Assembly (NCBI GenBank): GCA_017545365.1
Contig: JAFWOP010000068.1
Span: 1-9,636, forward strand
DNA from: Bacteroidales bacterium
Lineage (GTDB): Bacteria; Bacteroidota; Bacteroidia; Bacteroidales; P3
Direction of reading: 5' to 3'
DNA length: 9,636 bases
The position numbers and the translations under genes were made by a program. The number at the start of each line of letters is the position of its first letter. Position 1 is the stretch's first letter. Under the pieces are notes generated by a model. It was not told the origin of the DNA, ran no database searches, and saw only the letters and a list, made by a program, of their open reading frames with translations. Shown piece after piece: positions 520-9,636 of this stretch.

Positions 520-750
520 TGAAACTGACAAAAAAAGAAAGCCCCGCACGAGCAAGTGTGTGCCGTCGTGACGGGGCTGAAATTGAGGGCACGAAGGTGG
601 GAGAAGTAAACCAATTACCATCTCATTCTACTTCTCTCCGCCCACAAAACCCAAGGCATAGAAAGGTCTGATACCGCCACTATAAACGCAGCAAGACCGA
701 TTCTATTGTGTGGGACAAGAAAACAGTCTGCACCTATCACCCACGCAGCA
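520..750 (+). repeat. Intergenic structured repeat, copy 1
   Basis: This ~231-bp element recurs at 5442-5665, again between two transcription units and upstream of a secreted-protein gene. In order it contains a shared tgaaactga; an A-rich tract; a GC hairpin (540-578); a conserved spacer (aaattgagggcacgaagg); a second hairpin (596-642); a 64-nt block (650-713) that differs from copy 2 at one base; and a short 3' motif (agtctgcac, then cacgcagca). Hairpin 2 pairs ggtgg-gagaagta with tacttctc-t-ccgcc around a 20-nt loop. Its single U.G wobble becomes C-G in copy 2. The element ends 36 nt before the ATG at 787. Conservation of non-coding sequence with pairing-preserving changes suggests a structured RNA or a mobile intergenic element. 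Strand and function are unknown. Confidence 0.85.
540..578. terminator. GC-rich hairpin after the first gene (possible terminator, stronger on the minus strand)
   Basis: The stem gccccg-cacga (541-551) pairs with tcgtg-a-cggggc (566-577) with one bulged A at 571, plus A540-T578. No T-tract follows on the + strand. On the minus strand the stem is followed directly by TTTCTTTTTTT, the layout of an intrinsic terminator for leftward transcription. On the + strand it may act as a 3' RNA-stabilising hairpin or a weak terminator of the upstream gene, 89 nt after its stop codon. Confidence 0.5.
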
Positions 751-1986: not shown

Positions 1987-3009
1987 ATGAAAAAAATCGT
2001 ATTACTGATAATTACCGCTATTGCGGTAGTCACTGCATGGGCGCAGGACACGGCCAGATACCTGCCCGCATTCGAAGCAGGTCAACGTTGGAATGAGGCA
2101 CGAATTGGGAGCATTCTGAGTGAGACAGTTATATGCTATATGGATTCCTTAACAACGGTGGTGGATAGCAATGAGTACTGCACCTTTCAAATGGATAATA
2201 GGCTAGCAGGTTATACTCACCTATTTCCATCTTATGATTATGATGAACGAATCTATTTAAGACAGAGCAAAGACAACAGCAAAGTCTACTTTAAATCTCC
2301 ACGAGATAGTGAAGAATACTGTGTTTATGATTTGGATATGCACGTGGGGGACACCTTTTGTTCAATCATGCGTTCAGCCCCAGTACCTCTGATAGTGGAC
2401 AGTGTGTACTTACTGGATGGGCGAAAGCACGTCCGGTTCACCCCCAGACTGGCAGCAATAGATACGGCCAATCATTTTCTTCCCGAAGTGAAAAATCTGC
2501 CGTTGGAATTCATCGAGGGCATGGGGCCTTCATGGGGGTGGATGTGGCTCATGACAGATGGAGATCATCACGGGCCGAATTACCCCAGAGCTGTGATCCA
2601 TGCAGCGGCTTGGTCTGTTATGCTATGTGTTTACAGGGATGAGGTGCAGGTCAACAGTGATTTTACCGAGCCATTCGAACACCACTTGTACGACCTCCTC
2701 CCCAATACTAATATTCCTTTTGCAAACTGTGTCTTGGACCCGGGCGAAGAATTTGGAGGAATCAAGCATCCTAGTAGAGATGTGTATACCGTCTTCCCCA
2801 ATCCGGCATCGTCCATAGTGCGTATAGGGGGGCTGGTGGGGAGGCCGGCCACAGTGGAAGTATACGACATGGCAGGCCGCCTGCTGCAGAGGGAGCAGAC
2901 CTCGGCCTCAGACCCCACGGTTGACCTCTCCACCTTGCAAGGCCAAATGTTCCTGATTCGTATCATGACCGACGAGGCGTGTTCAACTCAAAAAATATTG
3001 AAACTATGA
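1987..3009 (+). CDS. Secreted T9SS type A sorting-domain protein of unknown function
   Basis: This encodes 340 residues, starting at an ATG 15 nt after the previous stop codon. Residues 1-19 form a signal peptide (MKKIVLL, a hydrophobic core, AWA) with predicted cleavage before Gln20. The ~245-residue central region has no motif I can tie to an enzyme. It contains a VYDLDMHVGDTF segment, a VDSVYLLDGRKHVRF segment and an EFIEGMGPSWGWMW segment; similar D-x-x-VGD and IEG(I/M)G patterns are common in uncharacterised T9SS cargo. Residues ~266-340 are a type A sorting domain (VFPNPASS, VEVYDMAGRLL, ending STQKILKL). Its last codons overlap the next gene by ATGA, which suggests translational coupling. 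Surface export is well supported; the molecular role is not known. Confidence 0.85.
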   Translation: MKKIVLLIITAIAVVTAWAQDTARYLPAFEAGQRWNEARIGSILSETVICYMDSLTTVVDSNEYCTFQMDNRLAGYTHLFPSYDYDERIYLRQSKDNSKVYFKSPRDSEEYCVYDLDMHVGDTFCSIMRSAPVPLIVDSVYLLDGRKHVRFTPRLAAIDTANHFLPEVKNLPLEFIEGMGPSWGWMWLMTDGDHHGPNYPRAVIHAAAWSVMLCVYRDEVQVNSDFTEPFEHHLYDLLPNTNIPFANCVLDPGEEFGGIKHPSRDVYTVFPNPASSIVRIGGLVGRPATVEVYDMAGRLLQREQTSASDPTVDLSTLQGQMFLIRIMTDEACSTQKILKL

Positions 3010-3341
3010 AAAAGCACCTGTTCGCATTGATGTGCTTCTGCACAATATGTTTTGTGGCCTTTCCCCAAAAGGATGCCCGTAACGGATATGATATTTCACC
3101 TAGTGGGATGTTAAGAATCTTAGTGGTTTTTGCTGATGTGGTGGACGACCCTAATCCATCACCCGTATCCGGCTGGAATGCCGGACAGCTGCCACGATAC
3201 AAGGACAGCATCATCGACCCTTCCATCTCCACCTCCATTGTCAGCCAGATAACCCACATATACCATCAGGCCTCTTTTGGTGCGTTCCAAGTGGTGGGGA
3301 CTATCTACCTTATCTTGTGCCAATTCATTATTCCGATTTAG
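3006..3341 (+). CDS. M6-like metalloprotease, N-terminal fragment before a frameshift
   Basis: The ATG at 3006 overlaps the previous gene's stop codon as ATGA, and a signal peptide follows (MKKHLFALM, hydrophobic to ~residue 20, then PQKD). Pro at -1 is unusual for signal peptidase. The mature start runs into LRILVVFADV, a lysine/aspartate-rich stretch and IYHQASFGAFQVVG, typical of the N-terminal part of secreted M6-like proteases (an F-A/V-D strand, then Y-x-x-x-S-F/Y-G). After G98 (3297-3299) the frame runs into 13 unrelated hydrophobic residues and stops at 3341. The sequence resumes in the -1 frame as DYLPYLVPIHYSDLGGG, so this and the 3317-5425 frame are one gene. Read through, the protein would be ~806 residues. 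See the separate entry for the frameshift. Confidence 0.75.
   Translation: MKKHLFALMCFCTICFVAFPQKDARNGYDISPSGMLRILVVFADVVDDPNPSPVSGWNAGQLPRYKDSIIDPSISTSIVSQITHIYHQASFGAFQVVGTIYLILCQFIIPI
3294..3302 (+). other. One-base frameshift in a G run (G4 where G5 restores the frame)
   Basis: The zero-frame codons are GTG GTG GGG ACT. Five G's instead of four would give GTG GTG GGG GAC TAT and join the two halves of the protease. It may be a real mutation, a homopolymer assembly error, a phase-variable tract or a -1 slip site: a glycyl-tRNA on GGG at 3297-3299 could re-pair fully with GGG at 3296-3298. Confidence 0.8.
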
Positions 3342-5425
3342 GTGGCGGTTTCTATAATGGCTATGGGGTAAAACAGGTGGTTAGTTATTTGAACAGTCTT
3401 TCTGGTGAAATATACTCAAACGGTGGTCTTCCATTGTCTGCTTTTGACATGAGGACTCCAAATAGAACATCTTATAATCCAAATGTACAGGGTTCTAATG
3501 GGAAAATTGATGTGTTTGCCATTGTGTGGCGGAACAACAGCAAATATTGGCCCGGTAGAGATGGTGGTAATACTGATAATAGAATGAGTTGGGCATTAAA
3601 AGACATGTCAGGTCTGGATTTGTATATAAACATCTGCACAGACAGCATTTCGGGCTGTATGCGTCACGAACTTGCCCATAGATTATTAGGTGATAATGAC
3701 TATCACACAGGAGGTGCGGGAGCAGGAGTCGGACATTTCCTCTCCAATATAGGTGGCTATGGCATACTGAGCAGTTTCAACAAAAACCTGTATTCATGCA
3801 GTGCCTGGGATCGGTGGAGGCTAGGGTGGAAAAGCATCGCCAACCAATACTACATCTCGGCCCGTAGGCCGGATGACATGACAGAGGTTGAAACCGATCT
3901 TGAATATGGAGAGGCTCTGACTGATGAAGTATTTGTACTCCGCGACTTCCTGACCTATGGTGATGCCATCCGTATAAAGCTGCCCTACGTCAAATCAATC
4001 CGTCCACTTGCTGAAAACCAGTACCTGTGGATTGAAAACCACCAGTTGCTGCCAAACTCTCCAGAATATGACCCTGATAAGCCCAAAGGAATCAGACTCA
4101 ATATTCAGATTGGTAATGATATCCTTGTAGGAAATGAACTTGACCATTCCCGCACCAATTACTATGTGCCCCTCTCATCGTTTGGGAACTACGATTTTGA
4201 CTACTATTTTGACCCTGCCAATGCAGGCCCTGGCAGGAAAAAGAATGGCTACTATACAGCCTCGACAGGCTGGCAGATGGCAAATCCGTTCTCTGGACAC
4301 CACCTGCTGATGCTTCCAGCCCTTGACACCTTGCCTGGAGATGATGTGATTGGTCCCAAAGAATATGTGGCTATTTACAATGTCCTATATGACGGGGTGC
4401 AAATATTAGACTATCATCCTGTATTTGGCAGTCAGTATGATGCATTCCCTACAGGTAGCTCGTTGCGACTGTCCTCTAATCCATCTACTGTCCCATTGTT
4501 GACATACAAGACAGGGGATAGGGCTAGTAATAGTGTCATTTATAATCAAGCAGATATTTCTGACAACCGCCATATTTTCCTTAACGGACTCAGAGTAGAC
4601 GTTCTAGAAGAGGATGTGGGCGGCAATGGTGCTGTAAAAGTTCGAATAAGATGGAACGACTTTGATGTGGACAAGCATGTCCGATGGTGCGACTCAATCA
4701 TTCTGACCGAAAAGGTCTCTCTGAACCCAGGCTACTCCATCACATTAGACCAAGGAAGATCGCCGGTGCAGCCGTGCAACCCCCGTCTATTTAATCAACA
4801 GAAAATCTTTGCCGACCCCACAGTCTTCACATGCAGGGACGGCTCGACATTTACACAAAAGGAAAACTCTGTTGTAAACGTCATCAACAATTCGACGTTA
4901 ACCATAGAGTCAGGTGCAACCTATATCGTTGAGGATAATGCCTCTCTGAACCTCCTTAGCAACTCAACCCTGATTGTGGAAGATGGAGCCACACTTAAGG
5001 TTGTAGGTCGTGGACATGTGGAGATTGATGCCTCAGCCTATCTCTGTCTCGGAGAATATGCAAACCTGATACTACTAGACGAACTGAGTGCGCTGAATTT
5101 TCATCATGGGGCTGTATTGGGTGTAGACACCACGGTACATCCTGAGGCGACATGCTCATCAAGCGATTTTGAGTCTATAGCCTTTACTGGGAATGGACAC
5201 CTCATCAATTATAACAACAGTTGCTATGTACAAAACAGAACATTTAGCACTCAGACCTACCTCACTGGGTCTACAGTGTGTGCTGGGCATCATGTCACCA
5301 ATGATATTCCGTATGGAGACGTGATTATTTCACCAAGGGCAGATGTGATTATTGATGCTGATGCCGACACTTTTTTGGAGTCTGGTGTGGAAGTCTCCCT
5401 GGGTGGGCAGTTGGAAGTTCGATAA
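3317..5425 (+). CDS. M6-like zinc metalloprotease, catalytic and C-terminal part (after the frameshift)
   Basis: This is the continuation of the gene that starts at 3006; the GTG at 3317 is only the first start-like codon in the frame and is probably not used. The zinc site is HELAHRLLGDNDYH at 3665-3706 (residues ~221-234 of the joined protein): HExxH with a downstream Gly and His. A Gly-rich segment and CSAWDRWRLGW follow; the Ser-Ala-Trp and Leu-Gly-Trp elements are typical of M6/immune-inhibitor-A relatives. A beta-rich middle ends with RWNDFDVDKHVRWCDSIIL. The last ~170 residues are repetitive beta-strand rungs (LTIESGATYIVED, LIVEDGATLKVV, and a terminal DVIISPRADVIIDAD...GGQLEVR). This resembles stacked beta C-termini of other Bacteroidetes exoproteins, but it is not a type A sorting domain, so its secretion route is uncertain. 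It likely degrades external protein if a full-length product is made. Confidence 0.78.
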   Translation: MPIHYSDLGGGFYNGYGVKQVVSYLNSLSGEIYSNGGLPLSAFDMRTPNRTSYNPNVQGSNGKIDVFAIVWRNNSKYWPGRDGGNTDNRMSWALKDMSGLDLYINICTDSISGCMRHELAHRLLGDNDYHTGGAGAGVGHFLSNIGGYGILSSFNKNLYSCSAWDRWRLGWKSIANQYYISARRPDDMTEVETDLEYGEALTDEVFVLRDFLTYGDAIRIKLPYVKSIRPLAENQYLWIENHQLLPNSPEYDPDKPKGIRLNIQIGNDILVGNELDHSRTNYYVPLSSFGNYDFDYYFDPANAGPGRKKNGYYTASTGWQMANPFSGHHLLMLPALDTLPGDDVIGPKEYVAIYNVLYDGVQILDYHPVFGSQYDAFPTGSSLRLSSNPSTVPLLTYKTGDRASNSVIYNQADISDNRHIFLNGLRVDVLEEDVGGNGAVKVRIRWNDFDVDKHVRWCDSIILTEKVSLNPGYSITLDQGRSPVQPCNPRLFNQQKIFADPTVFTCRDGSTFTQKENSVVNVINNSTLTIESGATYIVEDNASLNLLSNSTLIVEDGATLKVVGRGHVEIDASAYLCLGEYANLILLDELSALNFHHGAVLGVDTTVHPEATCSSSDFESIAFTGNGHLINYNNSCYVQNRTFSTQTYLTGSTVCAGHHVTNDIPYGDVIISPRADVIIDADADTFLESGVEVSLGGQLEVR

Positions 5426-5441
5426 TGAACAACAAAAACCA

Positions 5442-5665
5442 TGAAACTGATACAAGAAAGCCCCGCACAAGCTAGTATGTGCCGTTGTGCGGGGCGGAAA
5501 TTGAGGGCACGAAGGCGGGAGAAGTAAACCAATTACCATTTCATACTACTTCTCTCCGCCTGCTAGGCCCAAGGCATAGAAAGGTCTGATGCCGCCACTA
5601 TAAACGCAGCAAGACCGATTCTATTGTGTGGAAAAAGGGTAAAAAGTCTGCACCCCCACGCAGCA
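5442..5665 (+). repeat. Intergenic structured repeat, copy 2
   Basis: This is the second copy of the element at 520-750, with the same order of parts. The GC hairpin (5460-5495) has an unbroken 11-bp stem. Hairpin 2 (5514-5560) pairs ggcgg-gagaagta with tacttctc-t-ccgcc around a 20-nt loop. The 64-nt block (5568-5631) matches copy 1 at 63 positions. The segment between hairpin 2 and that block (tgctagg versus cacaaaa) has diverged, so conservation is confined to particular sub-parts. The copy begins 16 nt after the protease stop codon and ends 53 nt before the next ATG. Together with copy 1 it fills most of both non-coding gaps. Confidence 0.85.
5460..5495. terminator. GC-rich hairpin after the protease gene
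   Basis: The perfect 11-bp stem gccccgcacaa/ttgtgcggggc encloses a 14-nt loop. It starts 34 nt after the stop codon at 5425. It lacks a T-tract on the + strand; on the minus strand it is followed by TTTCTTGT, a weak tract. It is the counterpart of the hairpins at 540-578 and 9408-9439. A role in 3'-end formation or mRNA stability is inferred from position. Confidence 0.55.
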
Positions 5666-5718
5666 CGCATTGACAGATAAAAATGTCTAATCAATGATAA
5701 AAAACAAACAGAAACATC

Positions 5719-7194
5719 ATGAAAACAAACATAAATAAAAGATACCTTACTGCTGCGGTATGCCTCATGGTGTGTGTGACAGCATTCGCTCAGGCGCAGA
5801 GCGACAGTTCGGACAGGGTACTTCTCTCGTCGTGTCCAAGCGTATGGACCAGCTACAGCAACCCTAGAGAAGAATACAGCTTTGTGAGAAGCAACGCGAC
5901 GAATCATGTGGTATATATCCGGGAGAAAGAAAAAGTAGATGGCAGGGTGATTCACACCTTCATCGTCAAACGTACTGACCTTTCGGAGGTGGCTTTTTCC
6001 ACCTCTTTCCTCCCCCAACCCTATTTATCGGTGGAGATTTTGGACATGAGGCTTTATGAGGACACCTGCTATTTTTGTGGAAAGTATATTATACATTTGC
6101 GCGACTCAATAGTGAGAGAGCCTAGGACTAGAGGGTTTGTGGGGCGTTTTGTGACAACAGAGATGATAGGGGATTCGGGGTCGGTGAAATATTATATTGT
6201 TGATTCGGCGTATTTGCTGACACGTCTGGCAATCAGCCAGGGCAATGGTTCTCCGTTGTTGATTAGCGCTATCGGAGAGGCGTATCCTTCTGGGAAAGAT
6301 TGTATTGTGGAGATGAAAAATGGTGGGGCGTTAGGGTGGAAAAGGATCTATGATATAGTTTATACTGCCGACAATCTCATCTTTTCGGATATCATGAAGA
6401 TGGGCGACAGCCTCACGTTGCTGGCCCAGTACAGCTGCATCAATGACAACCCGCCAGGCTCTATCGACTATGACTATAACCATCAGGTGTTCCTGCTGGA
6501 CAGGTTTACCCTTATGGGATGCAAAGCCACCCATGGCTCAGTGCCGTGCTATATGGCTTTGTATAGCCTGCCAGTAGTGCAGGATTACTATTTCCATCAC
6601 GACAGGGCACCGATGCGTCTGTTCCATATCCAGGACAAAAAAAACAAGTTTGGTGTGGCGTTCGGGGTAGAGGAGGAAAACGGATTTCATAGCGGCATCA
6701 GGCTGTTTAAATTCCAACATGCCTGGGAATATTACAGCAGCCTATACTATCGGGCAGGCACGAACACGGAGATAAAAGAAATAGGGAATCATTACAAGAC
6801 GGATACCCTGTATGTCCTGTCAAAGGATAACGCAAACCCTAACGGCCTGATAACCGTACCCTCAATGGGTATAGGTGCGTATCCTGTCACCGTTTTGAAG
6901 CACTATGCATACACTTTCAATTCTCTGACGCAGAAATTTGCCGGGAGCCACATAGACATTTCGGGTCATGACAATTTCTCTACGTTTCATCTGTTTGACC
7001 AAAATATCTACAGCCTCTCGTCACCCTCATGTTTCCAAATATATACCCGCGAATATGAACCCCTTTCCAAGGGCCGGGCCGAAGGGCATCGCGTTGTCTG
7101 GGATTACTCGGAAGAAAGAAAGTTCGACTGGACGACGGCGGAAATAAACAAAATACAGATAGAAAAAACTACTGTTTGTGAAAAATGCGACTAA
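5719..7194 (+). CDS. Secreted protein of unknown function, no sorting domain
   Basis: The ATG at 5719 follows an A-rich leader without a Shine-Dalgarno sequence. The 491-residue product starts with a signal peptide (MKTNINKRYL, a hydrophobic core, AFA) with predicted cleavage before Gln26 or Gln28; there is no lipobox. The rest is rich in Tyr, Asp and beta-prone segments, with repeated short strand-turn patterns such as DTCYFCGKYI, DSLTLLAQYS, HQVFLLDRF and DTLYVLSKD. This could be a beta-propeller-like fold, but I cannot define blades with confidence. It ends in TTVCEKCD, with no type A sorting domain, so it is probably periplasmic or uses another route. It is followed after 13 nt by the InlB-repeat gene and is probably co-transcribed with it. 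I do not recognise the family. Confidence 0.75.
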   Translation: MKTNINKRYLTAAVCLMVCVTAFAQAQSDSSDRVLLSSCPSVWTSYSNPREEYSFVRSNATNHVVYIREKEKVDGRVIHTFIVKRTDLSEVAFSTSFLPQPYLSVEILDMRLYEDTCYFCGKYIIHLRDSIVREPRTRGFVGRFVTTEMIGDSGSVKYYIVDSAYLLTRLAISQGNGSPLLISAIGEAYPSGKDCIVEMKNGGALGWKRIYDIVYTADNLIFSDIMKMGDSLTLLAQYSCINDNPPGSIDYDYNHQVFLLDRFTLMGCKATHGSVPCYMALYSLPVVQDYYFHHDRAPMRLFHIQDKKNKFGVAFGVEEENGFHSGIRLFKFQHAWEYYSSLYYRAGTNTEIKEIGNHYKTDTLYVLSKDNANPNGLITVPSMGIGAYPVTVLKHYAYTFNSLTQKFAGSHIDISGHDNFSTFHLFDQNIYSLSSPSCFQIYTREYEPLSKGRAEGHRVVWDYSEERKFDWTTAEINKIQIEKTTVCEKCD

Positions 7195-9355: not shown

Positions 9356-9407
9356 TGAACAATCTGATGAATAAAAGATTATAGGTTATGAAAAACCTGC
9401 CACCCAT

Positions 9408-9439
9408 GCCCCGCACACCCATACTGGAGTGTGCGGGGC
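9408..9439. terminator. GC-rich hairpin after the InlB-repeat gene
   Basis: The perfect 11-bp stem gccccgcacac/gtgtgcggggc encloses a 10-nt loop (ccatactgga) that can itself form a 3-bp stem. It lies 52 nt after the stop codon at 9355. It is the third member of the hairpin set (540-578, 5460-5495) and, like copy 2, is followed by cggaa. The remainder of the long element is not recognisable downstream. No T-tract follows on either strand. Confidence 0.55.
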
Positions 9440-9636
9440 GGAAGGAGGCAAGGCTGACCCCAGAAAGAGGATGGCAGAAAAGAGTCCTTTCCTGCTAAGG
9501 GGATTTCTAGAAATCACCTCGGAGAGGTGTGGCCATTAATAACGTTGCAGAAGTCGAGAGCAGAGCAAGCTTGCTTGCCTTGCCGAGATGCAGCAACGTC
9601 TCAGAGAAACACCGTACATGGCGCAGTGCGGTGATA
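9440..9636. other. Non-coding stretch dense in inverted repeats (candidate structured RNA or element end)
   Basis: Five consecutive foldable units lie after the 9408-9439 hairpin. 9474-9495 has a 9-bp stem with one mismatch and a 4-nt loop. 9502-9515 is a perfect 14-bp palindrome (gatttctagaaatc). 9515-9529 is cacctc-gga-gaggtg. 9542-9599 is bounded by acgttgc/gcaacgt and contains the 12-bp palindrome agcaagcttgct at 9564-9575. 9610-9633 pairs caccgtac with gtgcggtg. No convincing gene occupies it, and it runs off the window. It could be a structured RNA, a 5' leader of the next gene or the end of a mobile element. Confidence 0.45.

Follow-up and report, generated by a model that had tools for sequence, protein, structure and literature searches.

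The window, that is, the whole 9,636-nt stretch of contig JAFWOP010000068.1 analysed here (forward strand), contains two copies of a predicted RNA element, both on the + strand and each followed by a gene for a putatively exported protein. Copy 1 (519–759) extends from the start codon of a leader ORF to the 3' arm of a pseudoknot, and the R1 covariance model matched it at 539–750 with 199 bits. Its leader ORF position (519–671, +) is atypical, with a GTG start and a 50-codon frame, and an ATG-TGA start–stop is found at 517–522. The predicted fold comprises hairpin P1 (541–577, 541–551 pairing with 566–577), helix P3 enclosing hairpin P2 (587–652; P3 587–590/649–652, which is weak here and whose 5' arm was placed by reading the letters, and P2 596–607/630–642), the interrupted helix P4 (658–706; 658–669/694–706) with a conserved AUAAACGCAGC stretch in its loop at 682–692, helix P5 (707–747; 707–713/741–747), and pseudoknot PK2 (726–759), in which the P5-loop GUCUGC (726–731) pairs with the downstream GCAGAC (754–759). 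The first gene after copy 1 (787–1971, +) encodes a 394-aa exported protein, whose type IX secretion system (T9SS) tail scored above the NCBIfam cut-off and just below the Pfam cut-off.

Copy 2 (5441–5678, +; model match 5458–5665, 210 bits) begins with an ATG-started leader ORF (5441–5527, +; MKLIQESPAQ...) of 28 codons, which exceeds the 4-codon form common in the family. It has the same helices, namely P1 (5460–5495; 5460–5470/5485–5495), P3 around P2 (5505–5570; P3 5505–5508/5567–5570, P2 5514–5525/5548–5560), P4 (5576–5624; 5576–5587/5612–5624) with the conserved stretch at 5600–5610 in the loop, and P5 (5625–5662; 5625–5631/5656–5662), together with a weak PK2 whose positions were assigned by reading (5646–5650 with about 5674–5678). 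The first gene behind it (5719–7194, +) encodes a 491-aa protein that has an export-type N-terminus and matches no Pfam family. Four of the seven window ORFs scanned carry a T9SS tail that scores above the NCBIfam cut-off. In addition, an M6-peptidase-like gene at 3006–5425 is split over two overlapping frames, while close relatives (805–806 aa) are unsplit; the split may be genuine or may stem from faulty sequencing.

Toward the end of the window, a GCCCCGCAC/GUGUGCGGGGC hairpin (9388–9439) lies 20 nt past an ATG, at the place expected for a third copy. The covariance model gave no match to this hairpin, and the sequence running on to the end of the window has a strong predicted fold (z -4.8); the hairpin is possibly a remnant consisting of P1 only. 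A separate dispersed repeat follows the last gene at 9496–9636, with a palindromic part at about 9541–9607. The stretch 9388–9636 matched 79 of 189 family genomes (E ≤ 1e-4), the matches listed always falling in the 9496–9636 part, with module boundaries near 9540 and 9600 and up to 55 first-look candidates per genome (best 4 scored). In look, this repeat is REP- or BIME-like.

The sequence-only reading of this DNA had described two conserved intergenic copies with common hairpins, and both the repeat search and the folding analysis bear this out. The copies aligned over 148 nt at 92% identity (572–719/5490–5637), with shorter shared tracts of 41 nt at 85% (535–575/5454–5494) and 24 nt at 75% (513–536/5435–5458), nearly in register at a spacing of 4918–4922, and both folded better than dinucleotide shuffles (z -2.9 for copy 1 and -5.0 for copy 2). 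The 64-nt block reported as identical at 63 positions was recovered as such (650–713/5568–5631). The site had been placed correctly, with limits slightly too narrow, as the unit begins at 519 and 5441 and the pseudoknot arm of copy 1 reaches 759. When the two copies were compared together with 600-nt flanks, blast returned one alignment, from the region of the leader start codon to the end of P5, in agreement with the view that the flanking genes are unrelated. The ORFs that overlap the copies either run antisense (up to 218 aa) or arise from alternative upstream starts, and the conservation is explained better by covarying helices than by these ORFs. A coding explanation by a single ORF was rejected because the frames are not the same in the two copies and the helices covary.

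The consensus fold was derived from a seed alignment of seven sequences, in which 12 of 49 pairs had changed on both sides with pairing kept, and the resulting covariance model (7 copies, 205 positions, 46 pairs) was used to collect further members. The 80 stretches taken hold 92 of the 123 matches, the other 31 being left out, plus one copy missed by the wide search; these 93 family copies and the two window copies make up a 95-row alignment. Both-sided changes were found in 43 of the 46 pairs, 90.5% of the cells were paired against 76.6% in shuffled and at most 47.7% in slid controls, and the covariation score was 0.381 versus 0.162. This alignment was fitted to the fold, which favours the fold, and two further checks answer this in part. 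Among 40 non-seed copies of less than 70% mutual identity, 90.4% of the cells were paired versus 73.1% after shuffling (shuffle maximum 74.7%), and a mutual-information scan of column pairs pairable in more than 75% of rows placed the P1–P5 helices of the model at its top ranks. Compensatory changes beyond both kinds of control thus point to a structured RNA, in line with the functional RNA that had been among the options of the sequence-only reading.

The conserved fold consists of P1, P3 around P2, the interrupted P4, and P5 with the 3' pseudoknot PK2. Unpaired loop sequences are conserved as well, AACG in the terminal loop of P4 being almost invariant. In PK2, the P5 loop pairs with bases after P5 and the partners alternate among copies (GUUGC/GCAAC, GUCUGC/GCAGAC, ACUGCC/GGCAGU, and UCUACC/GGUAGA); over 80 copies its mean helix score was 13.7 versus 11.9 (maximum 12.4 in 30 shuffles), and a score of at least 12 was reached in 64 of 80 copies compared with 36.8 after shuffling (maximum 45). 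A further pairing, PK1, could join the P1 loop (GCGCC) to the 5' strand of P3 (GGGUGC): 63 of 84 copies allow all five pairs to form, compared with none in the slid control. PK1 displayed no covariation, and it is kept as a possible alternative state to P3. Variation in modules was also observed. In one copy (L067, G099:C74, 1782–1942; L025 in the first alignments), most of P4 is apparently missing while P1, P2/P3, and P5 are retained, suggesting that P4 may be dispensable. A hairpin after PK2 and before the gene start, CUCUCGCGAyAGUAGAG-like, was seen by eye in L061, L064, L067, L069, L071, L073, L100, and L120, and a tentative upstream hairpin, P0, to which no weight is given, was noticed in some lipoprotein-proximal copies (38 copies covered, the L092 row among them being a slicing error).

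Comparison with known RNA families agreed with the earlier impression that this is not a described one. Searching the window against Rfam 15 at E ≤ 1 gave one match, which lies elsewhere (4089–4227) and below its cut-off, and 18 loci with copies gave no match at the gathering threshold. No earlier description was found in the main-text portions covered of PMC8040213, PMC2864571, PMC6429828, and PMC11109978, the motifs without Rfam number in PMC2864571 (e.g., Bacteroides-2 and GUCCY-hairpin) standing outside the comparison, and a term search of the portion of PMC8632094 covered gave no mention.

The distribution of the element appears to be narrow. Within one Bacteroidales family, the covariance model detected at least 123 matches (five of them seed copies), spread over 55 of the 190 genomes searched, with one to nine per genome (E ≤ 1e-3, best 12 candidates per genome scored; the weak-looking match L118:6045, 26.7 bits, is included), and two to nine copies each in 10 chosen genomes in which all candidates were scored (E ≤ 0.01). 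Copies beyond the reach of the seven-sequence model are undercounted in these figures. The element is hence neither a recent duplication within a single genome nor devoid of covariation, the two outcomes that would have spoken against the initial proposal. Beyond the family collection, an order sample of 393 genomes yielded only two matching genomes and a class sample of 395 only one (best six candidates per genome scored in both), all belonging to the same family, and a third sample of the order (41 genomes, as many as 58 candidates scored) gave a match in a family member alone. The element is therefore likely absent outside its Bacteroidales family. Direct DNA search of 149 family genomes found matches in seven, with three long copies at 72–79% identity, and exact 19- and 20-nt patterns had no match in viral and genome contigs. 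Plasmids and phages likewise gave no match, and a protein-based scan of viral contigs gave none. Searching with a window protein retrieved 16 loci in named genomes, from uncultured Bacteroidales, the closest three and one partial locus being from yak rectum, goat rumen, an RUG-numbered MAG, and sheep colon.

Upstream of the fold, a short ORF (uORF) was recognised. Of 91 distinct copies, 62 have an ATG at a distance of exactly 17 nt upstream of the model start, against a background of 0.018 per position; copies with nearly identical neighbouring sequence were removed as redundant from this count, as from the PK2 and pre-fold promoter counts. A frequent short form is a 4-codon ORF, M-(K/Y)-(F/L/I)-I-stop. 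Among 63 nonredundant copies with the ATG at 16–18 nt, codon 3 encodes F, L, or I in 49 cases. Codon 4 encodes Ile in 42 (ATC 27, ATA 10, ATT 5) and Lys in 10, and is ATG in 2; a stop stands at codon 5 in 27 (TGA 18, TAA 7, TAG 2). In most of the remaining copies the frame is longer, up to 110 codons. Swaps among Ile codons and among stop codons at fixed positions are the trace expected of translation, and the conserved start, in-frame stop, and coding-like substitution suggest that the uORF is translated in a large part of the family. It is not universal, and both window copies are atypical (GTG with 50 codons, and 28 codons).

The genes behind the element share export more than sequence. Same-strand ORFs of at least 50 aa start within 400 nt downstream in 90 of 95 copies, with a median gap of 56 nt, and the other five copies have at most 245 nt of contig left. 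By a crude rule, an export-type N-terminus was assigned to 81 of these 90 first ORFs versus 201 of 457 other ORFs at the same loci (spurious ones included); among the nine misses, inspected by eye, a signal follows an internal ATG in some, and two carry a leader of the double-glycine type. Comparison by blastp sorted the 90 proteins into 44 clusters. Of the 79 downstream proteins with a length of 100 aa or more, 77 were analysed with Pfam (L062 and L118:5434 were dropped), which revealed the T9SS tail in 11, BspA-type leucine-rich repeats in 4, and Peptidase_S74 in 4. At one locus (L117, G028:C24), both copies precede paralogous short peptides with the leader MKNLKLNELSKQQM.QITGG, which we take to be of the double-glycine type and thus to follow an export route unlike that of the Sec-type genes elsewhere. 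Among 81 copies with 400-nt flanks, 75 are followed within 160 nt by the start of a same-sense ORF of 70 aa or more (16 in the mirror control), and 70 have an export-type ORF close behind in that orientation (mirror control, 4 of 81). Such a consistent position and sense upstream of coding sequence suggests a cis-acting leader, so that, with the covariation, two options which the sequence-only reading had listed separately, a functional RNA and a regulatory leader of secreted-protein operons, are jointly favoured.

The same evidence bears on whether the element might instead be a trans-acting or processed noncoding RNA merely placed before exported-protein genes. Conserved unpaired loops and a complex fold would suit such an RNA, whereas the many copies per genome, mostly before different export-type genes at a consistent gap to the start codon, and the lack of a terminator-like 3' end make this explanation very improbable.

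On the upstream side, 47 of 95 copies lie no more than 400 nt beyond the end of a lipoprotein-like ORF (about 135 aa), and 10 further copies lie 1.3–3.7 kb behind such a gene. At seven loci, small ORFs with hydrophobic segments (by eye) precede the lipoprotein-like gene, and the first ORF of five scanned loci matched sigma-70 region 4, above the Pfam cut-off in L069, L138, L066, and L125 and below it in L063. Operons composed of a sigma-70-like gene, small ORFs with hydrophobic segments, and the lipoprotein gene are exemplified by L063:1546–3722 and L069:1952–4087. The operon lipoprotein often ends in ...YTCIA[IVT]K, with up to 12 matches per genome, and was detected in at least 112 of 190 family genomes (best 21 candidates scored) and in 2 of 247 genomes of an order sample, one of which is a family member (G147); the lipoprotein and its operon are thus nearly confined to the family. 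It occurs in 54 of 55 RNA-bearing genomes versus 58 of 135 others (Fisher p 1e-14, with genomes treated as unrelated). Among 40 lipoprotein loci chosen for having no match, switching the filters off brought out a same-strand downstream match (E < 0.01) in 11, most of these matches being weak, and other matchless loci showed by eye only a tiny ORF with P1 (e.g., L189), P2/P3 only (e.g., L175), or nothing (e.g., L172). The coupling between RNA and lipoprotein is therefore loose, and the RNA appears to be dispensable, as many such operons lack it or have only single modules (by eye).

Promoter-like sequences differed between the two contexts. Copies that do not directly follow the lipoprotein gene carry TTG-N17-24-TAnnTTTG within 300 nt upstream in 6 of 45 cases versus 0.65 expected (maximum 3 in 100 shuffles) and TAnnTTTG alone in 10 of 45 versus 4.0 (shuffle maximum 10), whereas copies directly behind the gene showed no enrichment (full motif 1 of 47 versus 0.5; TAnnTTTG 2 of 47 versus 3.6), so that upstream and downstream genes may share a transcript there. 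None of 57 copies has a TAnnTTTG in the 90 nt that precede the fold, and between RNA and gene this box stayed at chance level (3 of 82 gaps versus 1.7 expected). An E. coli-type scan placed a promoter-like site after each window copy (764–791 and 5670–5698; chance means 0.8 and 0.4); if these were real promoters, the RNA would not be the sole leader at the window genes.

The arrangement behind the lipoprotein gene raises the alternative that the RNA sits at an operon boundary and mainly protects or processes mRNA, giving upstream regulators and the exported gene different stability with no sensing involved. The 47 lipoprotein-proximal copies and the missing TAnnTTTG enrichment there are as this would predict, but 48 of 95 copies do not follow that gene directly, part of them with their own promoter-like sequence, and a plain stability element would not need the uORF, five helices, and conserved loops. 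This alternative is accordingly considered unlikely. As for termination, U-runs follow the 3' arms of P1, P2, P3, and P5 in none of 95 copies and that of P4 in five, and terminator-like matches in the window are antisense only and at chance frequency. A transcription attenuator with an intrinsic terminator was rejected, since neither the window scan nor the U-runs in 95 copies provided a sense-strand terminator.

Similarity within genomes keeps a third alternative under consideration, namely a non-autonomous mobile or recombining element, whose helices would be needed for movement (as RNA or folded single-stranded DNA), or whose homologous tracts would swap surface-protein genes behind a common leader. 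For 46 of 73 copies the nearest relative comes from the same genome, compared with 2.2 when labels are randomised (at most 8 across 200 shuffles), and in several genomes (the window, G147, and G104) similarity stops at the element edges between unrelated flanks, reaching 97.7% from -8 to +3 in G147. Contig ends lie within 300 nt of the element in excess (5 upstream and 7 downstream of 93, versus 1.4 expected each), and modules have been lost in places. On the other hand, similarity continues 120–240 nt upstream in most pairs of G150 and extends into the flanks in G177, G028, and G183, indicating that part of it is plain segmental duplication. The strict orientation to genes (70/81 against 4/81 in the mirror control) makes free transposition less likely, and it speaks against a MITE- or REP-like repeat without fixed orientation; mobility would also leave the uORF with its interchangeable stops and PK2 unexplained. 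No Pfam match to transposase, integrase, reverse transcriptase, or TnpB was found in seven window ORFs and 77 first downstream proteins, so that an integron attC, a retron, and a TnpB omega-RNA are likewise unsupported for lack of a partner enzyme in that set, and no inverted repeat of at least 20 nt joins the ends of either window copy. Overall, a mobile element as such is improbable, if slightly less so than the operon-boundary explanation, and it keeps a share because within-genome similarity often ends at the element edges. Of the small non-autonomous mobile element that had been suggested at first, copying and homogenisation within genomes are supported and unconstrained insertion is not; judged from sequence comparison, the element has, at least in part, probably been copied or converted as a unit.

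Taken together, the element is probably a lineage-specific, uORF-led, structured mRNA leader with a cis effect on the exported-protein gene downstream. On finishing the 4-codon ORF, a ribosome would halt 4 nt before P1 and would have to disturb P1, so that uORF translation may set the fold of the leader. Two leader states are conceivable, perhaps P3 versus the pairing of the P1 loop with the P3 strand, and the state reached could influence the efficiency of translation start in the A-rich stretch after PK2, or message stability. Control of translation or mRNA stability is likelier than transcription attenuation because no sense-strand intrinsic terminator was found. More tentatively, the leader might serve as a post-transcriptional secretome tag, a device started by a 4-codon ORF on mRNAs of exported and surface proteins of any family, which would couple translation of the cargo to a shared export or envelope signal, possibly that of the lipoprotein/sigma-factor system often found upstream, while recombination would homogenise the leaders and place new surface proteins under the same control.

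Structured leaders mostly guard a single pathway; if the cis-acting leader reading is true, one fold before dozens of unrelated genes that share export would constitute a post-transcriptional cell-surface regulon of uncultured Bacteroidales, probably in the ruminant gut, and would tie surface-protein diversity to a tiny ORF, a complex RNA, and a sigma-factor operon within one testable system. The host bacteria are thought not to rely on Shine-Dalgarno pairing, and the minimal uORF would offer a compact case of how a 4-codon ORF can control a leader without such reliance. REP/BIME sequences and MITEs are dispersed palindromic repeats with several similar intergenic copies per genome, a feature shared by the present element, which differs from them in its fixed orientation and start-codon distance, multi-helix fold, pseudoknot, and leader ORF. 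Like the riboswitches and candidate cis-regulatory motifs in the surveyed portions of PMC2864571, PMC8040213, and PMC6429828, it is a structured RNA upstream of genes with covariation, but its downstream genes share export and no evident common pathway. In the portion of PMC11109978 covered, the ilvB and fthC uORF motifs are described as a short ORF and conserved helices before the main ORF, the uORF stop of fthC often lying inside a hairpin, and each is associated with one gene and with intrinsic terminator stems. The element resembles them in the start codon of a short ORF and conserved helices before the main gene, and differs in preceding 44 protein clusters, in having no sense-strand terminator, and in an ORF that is often only four codons long; as far as that source goes, uORF-led leaders such as ilvB and fthC are the closest described logic.
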